From NCBI GenBank assembly GCA_024709955.1, contig JANJVS010000008.1:1-42236 (forward strand): a DNA stretch of 42,236 nucleotides, given 5' to 3'. The position numbers and the translations under genes are program-made. The first letter of the stretch is position 1; each line of letters begins with the position of its first letter. Below the pieces are notes generated by a model. The model was not told the DNA's origin, did not search any database, and saw only the letters and a program-made list of their open reading frames with translations. Origin of the DNA: Rhodocyclaceae bacterium. Its GTDB lineage: Bacteria; Pseudomonadota; Gammaproteobacteria; Burkholderiales; Rhodocyclaceae. Shown piece after piece: positions 18,465 to 20,599 of the stretch.

Positions 18465-18911
18465 ATGCAAGTGATTCTGATGGACAAGGTGGTCAACCTC
18501 GGCAATCTCGGCGACGTCGTCAAGGTCAAGGAAGGCTATGCCCGCAATTACCTGATCCCGAAGGGCTTCGCGAAGCGCGCGACCGCCGAGAACATGAAGG
18601 TGTTCGAGGCACGGCGCGCCGAGCTGGAGCGCATCGCCGCCGAGAAGCTGGCCGCCGCCCAGGCCAAGGCCGCCAAGCTGGAAGGCCTCAAGCTGGAAAT
18701 CGCCCGCAAGGCCGGCGTCGATGGCCGCCTGTTCGGTTCCGTGAGCCCGGCCGACGTGGCCGAGATGCTGACCGCCCAGGGCATCGAGGTCGAGAAGAGC
18801 GCCGTGCGCATGCCCGATCTCATCAAGACCATCGGCGACTTCCCGCTGGAGGTTGCGCTGCACCCCGACGTCGTGGCGAGCATCAGCATCGCCGTGGTCG
18901 GCGAGCAGTAA
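18465..18911 (+). CDS. rplI: 50S ribosomal protein L9
   Basis: [40 protein letters not shown]. Confidence 0.98.
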
Positions 18912-18930: not shown

Positions 18931-18955
18931 AGGGGGCCGCCGCGGGCGGCCCCCT
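18931..18955 (+). terminator. Intrinsic-terminator-like hairpin after rplI
   Basis: AGGGGGCCGCC-GCG-GGCGGCCCCCT, perfect 11-bp stem followed by GTCGTTT. Confidence 0.7.
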
Positions 18956-18977: not shown

Positions 18978-19030
18978 AAATGCACGGTCTTTCCACATCA
19001 TTTCCACCGCATATCCACAGCTTGTTCACT
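18978..19030 (+). promoter_or_regulatory. 11-bp-phased array of DnaA-box-like 9-mers upstream of dnaB
   Basis: AAATGCACG, CTTTCCACA, ATTTCCACC, ATATCCACA, TTGTTCACT start at 18978, 18989, 19000, 19011, 19022; all share a TNCAC core. Confidence 0.5.
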
Positions 19031-19092
19031 TCCCCCCGCAGGGGGCTCGCGAGTAGACTCGCGGGCTGCATGCATGGCATGAGGAGATCACG

Positions 19093-20496
19093 ATGGCCCA
19101 GGCGCAAGCCGCACAACCCTATTCTTCCGCATATGGGGATCCCCAAGTTGCTGCGCTCAAGCTGCCGCCGCATTCGATCGAGGCGGAGCAGTCGCTGATC
19201 GGCGGCCTGCTGCTCGACAACCAGGCCTGGGACCGCATCGCCGACCTGGTCAACGAGGCCGACTTCTACCGCGACGACCACCGCCGCATCTTCGCCCATA
19301 TCCGCAAGCTGATCGAGACCGGACGTCCGGCCGACGTGGTGACGGTGTTCGAGTCGATCGAGCACGCCAACCAGGCCGACCAGACCGGCGGCCTCGCCTA
19401 CCTGGGCGAGATCGCCAACGCCACGCCTTCGGCCGCCAATATCCGCCGCTACGCCGAGATCGTGCGCGAGCGCGCCGTGCTGCGCCGGCTGGTGACGGTC
19501 GGCGACGAGATCGCCGGATCCGCGCTGAATCCGGCCGGACGCGACGTCAAGACCCTGCTCGACGCCGCCGAGCAGAAGGTGTTCGAGATCGCCGAGGCGG
19601 GCAACCGCTCGGTGCAGGGTTTCCGGGCGATCACGCCGCTGCTCGGCGACGTCGTCGAGCGCATCGAGGTGCTCTACAACCGCGAGAATCCCTCGGACAT
19701 CACCGGCACCGCCACGGGCTTCCACGACCTCGACAAGATGACCTCCGGCCTCCAGCCGGGCGACATGATCGTCGTTGCCGGCCGCCCGTCGATGGGCAAG
19801 ACCGCCTTCGCCCTCAATATCGCCGAGTTCGTCGGCATGGAACTGCGGAAGCCGGTGGCGATCTTCAGTCTGGAAATGTCGGGGCCGCAGCTGGCCATGC
19901 GTATCCTGTCCTCCGCCGGCCGGCTCAACCAGACCAACATCCGCACCGGCAAGCTCAGCGACGAGGACTGGGAGAAGATGTCGATGGCCCTCGGCAAGTT
20001 GCACGAGGCGCCGATCCATATCGACGAGACCGGCGCGATCAATGCCTCCGACCTGCGCGCGCGCGCGCGCCGCCTGCACCGCCAGTGCGGCCAGCTCGGC
20101 CTGATCGTCATCGACTATCTGCAGCTGATGACCTCGGTGAAGGACAACGAGAACCGCGCCACGGAAATCTCCGAGATCTCGCGCTCGATCAAGGCGCTCG
20201 CCAAGGAGCTGCAGGTGCCGGTGATCGCGCTCTCCCAGCTTTCCCGCAAGGTCGAGGAGCGCAACGACAAGCGCCCGCTGATGTCCGACCTGCGCGAATC
20301 GGGCGCCATCGAGCAGGACGCCGACATCATCCTGATGATGTACCGCGAGGAGTACTACAAGCCCGACACCACTGAGAAAGGCATCGCCGAAGTCATCGTC
20401 GGCAAGCACCGCAATGGCCCGACCGGCACCGTCAAGCTGACCTTCCTCGGCGAATACACCCGCTTCGAAAACTTCGCATCGCCCGGCTCGTATTGA
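19093..20496 (+). CDS. dnaB: Replicative DNA helicase DnaB
   Basis: 467 aa; LPPHSIEAEQSLIGGLLLDN, VVAGRPSMGKTAFALNIAE, IVIDYLQLM, LSQLSRKVEERNDKRPLMSDLRESGAIEQDADIILMMYREEYY. Confidence 0.98.
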   Translation: MAQAQAAQPYSSAYGDPQVAALKLPPHSIEAEQSLIGGLLLDNQAWDRIADLVNEADFYRDDHRRIFAHIRKLIETGRPADVVTVFESIEHANQADQTGGLAYLGEIANATPSAANIRRYAEIVRERAVLRRLVTVGDEIAGSALNPAGRDVKTLLDAAEQKVFEIAEAGNRSVQGFRAITPLLGDVVERIEVLYNRENPSDITGTATGFHDLDKMTSGLQPGDMIVVAGRPSMGKTAFALNIAEFVGMELRKPVAIFSLEMSGPQLAMRILSSAGRLNQTNIRTGKLSDEDWEKMSMALGKLHEAPIHIDETGAINASDLRARARRLHRQCGQLGLIVIDYLQLMTSVKDNENRATEISEISRSIKALAKELQVPVIALSQLSRKVEERNDKRPLMSDLRESGAIEQDADIILMMYREEYYKPDTTEKGIAEVIVGKHRNGPTGTVKLTFLGEYTRFENFASPGSY

Positions 20497-20599
20497 GCCG
20501 GGCGATGCGAAGTTTCGGCGCAGGCTAACTTCGCGTAGCGAAGTTAAGCGCCCGCAGGGCGCGGCCGAAGCCCAAACACCCAAGTCCGGCTCGTATTGA
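20469..20599. repeat. Structured insertion-like element at the dnaB 3' end
   Basis: 21-bp inverted repeat around the dnaB stop (20469-20489 / 20495-20515), hairpin TAACTTCGC-GTA-GCGAAGTTA (20526-20546), hairpin GCGCCC-GCA-GGGCGC (20548-20562), and a 14-bp direct repeat CCGGCTCGTATTGA at 20483-20496 and 20586-20599. Confidence 0.75.

Follow-up and report, generated by a model that had tools for sequence, protein, structure and literature searches.

The oriC region of E. coli contains clusters of four weak DnaA sites that lie 2 bp apart, and most of these weak arrayed sites favour DnaA-ATP (PMC6070618). Across the E. coli genome, DnaA prefers paired boxes with a gap of 2 or 3 bp; binding to them needs more than one subunit and is disrupted by mutation of either box or by widening of the gap (PMC11317965). 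Even for E. coli, that article describes the way in which DnaA activates transcription as poorly understood. According to PMC7738170, DnaA of Mycobacterium tuberculosis binds upstream of the dnaB helicase gene, a DnaA mutant with reduced binding also under-expresses dnaB, and this binding is said, second-hand, to agree with Caulobacter.

The five repeats described here lie upstream of dnaB in a Rhodocyclaceae genome. They are like the low-affinity E. coli oriC arrays R5M-tau2-I1-I2 and C3-C2-I3-C1, which also consist of sub-consensus 9-mers with 2-bp gaps and an 11-bp step (PMC6070618), but they are a dnaB promoter element, anchored to the -10 hexamer and without an unwinding element. The paired DnaA boxes at the promoters of E. 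coli nrdA, polA, purH and mioC, with gaps of 2 or 3 bp, are similar in spacing and placement, whereas here up to five or six boxes stand in a row, and the accessible part of PMC11317965 does not list dnaB as an E. coli target. The likeness to M. tuberculosis and Caulobacter lies in the placement, here predicted, of the initiator before the helicase gene; those lineages are unrelated, and the accessible part of PMC7738170 describes no phased array. Our literature search, with most subscription journals outside it, found neither DnaA control of dnaB in Betaproteobacteria nor a phased array at a dnaB promoter. The original prediction called the arrangement not textbook, which holds for the array as a whole and not for its parts, since the 11-bp step is a known DnaA spacing (PMC6070618 and PMC11317965) and binding upstream of dnaB has been reported. 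What looks new is the conserved phased array at the dnaB promoter; that DnaA binds in front of dnaB had been reported in Mycobacterium and attributed to Caulobacter.

The repeats and their position in the window

The window (the whole 42,236-nucleotide stretch that was analysed) contains rpsF, rpsR and rplI upstream of the array and dnaB downstream of it, as identified by Pfam domains. The array lies between the rplI stop codon (18911) and the dnaB ATG (19093). Its features are as follows, with columns named by the distance of the core start from the first T of the -10 hexamer.

18465 to 18911, + strand: rplI, ribosomal protein L9 (Pfam L9), a neighbour that lies outside the element
18931 to 18955, no strand assigned: GC-rich hairpin 3' of rplI, a possible terminator, ending about 20 bp before the array
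18978 to 18986, + strand: box 1, AAATGCACG, core at 18981, the weakest, 6/9 to TTWTNCACA
18989 to 18997, + strand: box 2, CTTTCCACA, core at 18992, 8/9
19000 to 19008, + strand: box 3, ATTTCCACC, core at 19003, 7/9
19011 to 19019, + strand: box 4, ATATCCACA, core at 19014, 8/9, the -39 column
19022 to 19030, + strand: box 5, TTGTTCACT, core at 19025, 7/9, the -28 column, abutting the -35 position
19030 to 19035, + strand: poor -35 region TTCCCC, best match 3/6, 18-bp spacer
19054 to 19059, + strand: -10 hexamer TAGACT of the dnaB promoter, conserved, predicted start near 19066
19093 to 20496, + strand: dnaB, replicative helicase, 467 amino acids (Pfam DnaB N and C domains)

The cores, TGCAC, TCCAC, TCCAC, TCCAC and TTCAC in order, follow one another on the + strand in exact 11-bp steps. 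The original prediction had placed all five correctly, and 9-mer matching returned the same five scores that it had given; none of the five is a perfect DnaA box. It had also put the array between the rplI terminator and the dnaB start, of which the interval between the two genes stands, while the hairpin was not called by a terminator scan because no T run follows it. A consensus promoter scan called no dnaB promoter. At the far end of the gene, the short inverted and repeated runs CGAAACTTCGCATCG, GCGATGCGAAGTTTCG and GCTAACTTCGCGTAGCGAAGTTAAGC straddle the dnaB stop codon (window positions 20465 to 20555) and are possibly a terminator or a dispersed repeat.

Within any one genome, chance can produce arrays of a five-letter core, and phased T tracts can also bend DNA. 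In the window, the triple TNCAC-N6-TNCAC-N6-TNCAC is found only at the array (0 in 100 shuffles), and by pattern search it is unique to the array in the entire 3.5-Mb genome, with three overlapping matches against none for the reversed pattern. The original prediction had proposed shuffled sequence as a control, and here the array has four 11-bp pairs where dinucleotide shuffling of the local region, repeated 20,000 times, never gave more than one. These shuffles, together with the phasing and the conservation given below, contradict both chance periodicity and bending, and bent DNA was also rejected because the conserved letters are CCACA and not T tracts alone; we consider this pair of explanations negligible.

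Genome-wide, the 11-bp pair pattern has nine sites, of which two are within the dnaB array and six overlap an open frame of at least 90 codons; the exception is at position 11216 of contig C216 (locus L170). The pair in that locus (L170 1501), TTCCACAACCTTTACAC, is apparently non-coding and may be a further DnaA target.

Conservation and linkage to dnaB

We gathered 101 distinct dnaB upstream regions in a first set and 40 more later; the nearest relatives by rplI are Rhodocyclaceae metagenome-assembled genomes. From the first 101, a set of 54 was made whose dnaB is at least 70% identical and whose -10 hexamer is recognisable. Relative to the first T of that hexamer, cores in this set begin at -28 in 21 sequences, -39 in 40, -50 in 25, -61 in 26, -72 in 18 and -83 in 7, an 11-bp ladder. 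The window is 1 bp longer between array and -10 than the majority of relatives, and its box 1 core falls at -73, where 23 of the 54 have a core in the -72 or -73 column. The 54 regions contain 82 core pairs at 11 bp (shuffle mean 0.45, maximum 4) and a single such pair on the opposite strand, and the density of 11-bp pairs is 3.3 per kb in the rplI-dnaB gaps versus 0.008 per kb elsewhere in the same loci, a difference of about 430-fold. The array is not a product of chance.

Column by column, the 45 closest relatives give the profile ATTTCCACA-GC-TTGTTCaCT, followed by some more conserved bases, a weakly conserved spacer and GTAGACT. In the -10 hexamer the letters T, A, A, C and T are invariant and the G is present in 40 of the 45. 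Letters of the -39 box carry about 1.0 to 1.6 bits per base, versus 0.1 to 0.4 in the spacer between -35 and -10, and this column (box 4) is the best-conserved position of the array. Since the box letters have been held while the spacer has drifted, selection is indicated over recent common descent. The original prediction had named loss of core or spacing in close relatives as the outcome that would speak against it, and both the core and the 11-bp phase are kept.

Arrays are usual at a dnaB identity of 76% or more: two or more cores share one frame in 45 of the 52 sequences at that level, with up to six. Methyloversatilis members mostly have one TNCAC core, with a core of the NCCAC type lying one or two steps further upstream. 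Two cores, often including a perfect TTATCCACA, are present in many Thiobacillus; this perfect box occupies the -39 position in many Thiobacillus and some Methyloversatilis. No array was found in the dnaB upstream regions of family members whose dnaB is about 64 to 70% identical, and their -10, where recognisable, is mostly of the TAGAAT or TAAAAT type. The phased array is not universal in the family, and many of its members are without it.

At five loci (L006, L008, L010, L018 and L078) rplI precedes a different gene, and none has an array after rplI. In the first four of these genomes dnaB is located elsewhere (L085 to L088), and there the array is present, with three to five cores that share an 11-bp frame, as is a -10 of the same type (GTAGACT, or GTAAACT in L088); no full dnaB was found in the L078 genome. 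A search of 151 family genomes for two boxes and TARACT at a set distance gave nine matches, all nine before dnaB. Absence after an rplI that lacks dnaB and presence at a dnaB located elsewhere mean that the array is a dnaB promoter element. Clusters of DnaA boxes away from oriC act in E. coli to titrate DnaA or exchange its nucleotide (PMC11317965), so the array could be a datA- or DARS-like site that stands before dnaB by chance; such a site needs neither a fixed distance to a conserved -10 nor to travel with dnaB, and we regard this as very improbable.

DnaA as the predicted binder

Each 11-bp step is made up of one 9-mer and a 2-bp gap, the published spacing of E. coli DnaA sites. The genome that contains the window encodes one DnaA C-terminal domain, whose recognition region (VARPRQ ...) is nearly the same as its counterpart in E. 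coli DnaA domain IV (1J1V), and in two other genomes of the order 11-bp triples adjoin dnaA, upstream of it in L107 and between dnaA and dnaN in L109. Because of this spacing, the single DnaA with a near-E. coli recognition region and the triples beside dnaA elsewhere, DnaA is probably the protein that binds the array, a strong prediction. The locus also has what is expected of a DnaA-regulated promoter, namely TTWTNCACA boxes in the promoter region (8/9 at best, perfect in relatives), at least two of them 2 or 3 bp apart (here five, 2 bp apart) and a fixed, conserved position relative to the promoter elements. That a different protein might recognise the TTTCCACAGC repeats is suggested by the imperfect boxes of the window and by the GC that fills the 2-bp gap preceding the last box, which is likewise conserved. 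The consensus grades, however, into the perfect box at the same promoter position in Thiobacillus and Methyloversatilis, the step is DnaA's own and the genome has no second DnaA-type domain; a non-DnaA binder is improbable.

The original prediction also raised an accessory loading or strand-opening site, and phased DnaA boxes do serve in this way at oriC. No AT-rich unwinding element stands beside the boxes, and strand opening was rejected on composition, the G+C content being 53 to 58% over the array and 67 to 75% on either side; nor is this the usual origin neighbourhood, as the array is flanked by rplI and dnaB. The dnaA-dnaN gap of the same genome (L130 6158 to 6371) is AT-rich and contains three consensus or near-consensus boxes, TTATCCACA, TTGTCCACA and CTTTCCACA, which are scattered with no 11-bp array; judged by sequence, it is the probable oriC. 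An AT-rich gap with boxes there and no AT-rich element here make an origin role of the dnaB array unlikely, and an accessory origin or helicase-loading site highly so; that part of the original prediction did not hold up. Its label "iteron-like" is apt only loosely, for head-to-tail repeats: no replication initiator gene of a plasmid lies alongside, and a plasmid iteron array was ruled out by the chromosomal flanking genes rpsF, rpsR, rplI and dnaB. We note that a perfect TTATCCACA lies upstream of dnaA (L130 7896 to 7904, contig C11) in the orientation opposite to the gene, near a TAGAAT -10-like hexamer, and is likely an autoregulation site.

Probable control of dnaB by DnaA

The proposal in the original prediction that weak phased boxes could tie dnaB expression to DnaA is well supported by the conservation, by the anchoring to the promoter and by the presence of the array at dnaB where that gene is located elsewhere. 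DnaA control of dnaB, of either sign, is a highly probable prediction. The five repeats would be DnaA boxes of low to moderate affinity that all point the same way, are separated by 2 bp and together make up the regulatory region of the dnaB promoter. DnaA would nucleate at the best box (19011 to 19019) and fill the neighbouring weaker boxes cooperatively along one face of the DNA; it would probably do so mainly as DnaA-ATP, a preference in which we have moderate confidence. The -39 box is the likely anchor because it is the best conserved and is a consensus box in distant relatives, and so box 4 is probably the anchor site in the window. The last DnaA protomer would then abut RNA polymerase at the -35, in a promoter whose -10 is the conserved TAGACT and whose -35 is weak. 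Abundant active DnaA would most likely activate dnaB transcription, so that helicase synthesis would coincide with the readiness of the initiator to load the helicase.

The direction of control is less firm than the control itself. All boxes are upstream of, or at the edge of, the -35, which is the layout of activator sites, and the -28 box extends to the -35 position, where a class II activator would sit; box position alone favours activation. The -35 is poor, but arrayless promoters are no better, and comparison of promoters with and without arrays did not support a link between arrays and a worse -35. Its quality therefore does not decide between activation and repression. DnaA might instead bind the array and repress dnaB, in a negative feedback on helicase level as at its own promoter; box 5 abuts the -35 position, and numerous E. 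coli promoters are DnaA-repressed (PMC11317965). Against this, no box lies over the -10 or the start, and the arrays reach upstream to about -95, as activator sites do. We think repression unlikely and, given DnaA control, activation likely, a preference that we put at weak to moderate strength. The complete proposal, a DnaA array on the dnaB promoter that activates it, is rather probable.

A more speculative extension is a feed-forward circuit shared across the lineage: an oligomer of several DnaA-ATP protomers, of the type known at oriC, would sit on the dnaB promoter as a graded sensor, activating helicase synthesis at initiation potential, with two to six boxes tuning the threshold; we offer this tentatively, as somewhat short of even. 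The arrangement suggests that the protein which loads the helicase may also control its amount. The relatives provide a natural series of promoters of an essential replication gene, in which the phased boxes number two to six and keep a fixed distance to the -10. This series allows a direct test both of the mechanism of DnaA activation and of the idea that the initiator controls helicase supply.

In a further genome of this order, near-perfect DnaA boxes form two inverted 11-bp triples (L100 1501 to 1586). They are located between glycosyltransferase-like and heptosyltransferase-like genes, in a 3-kb locus with no dnaA, and are possibly a titration site or an origin.
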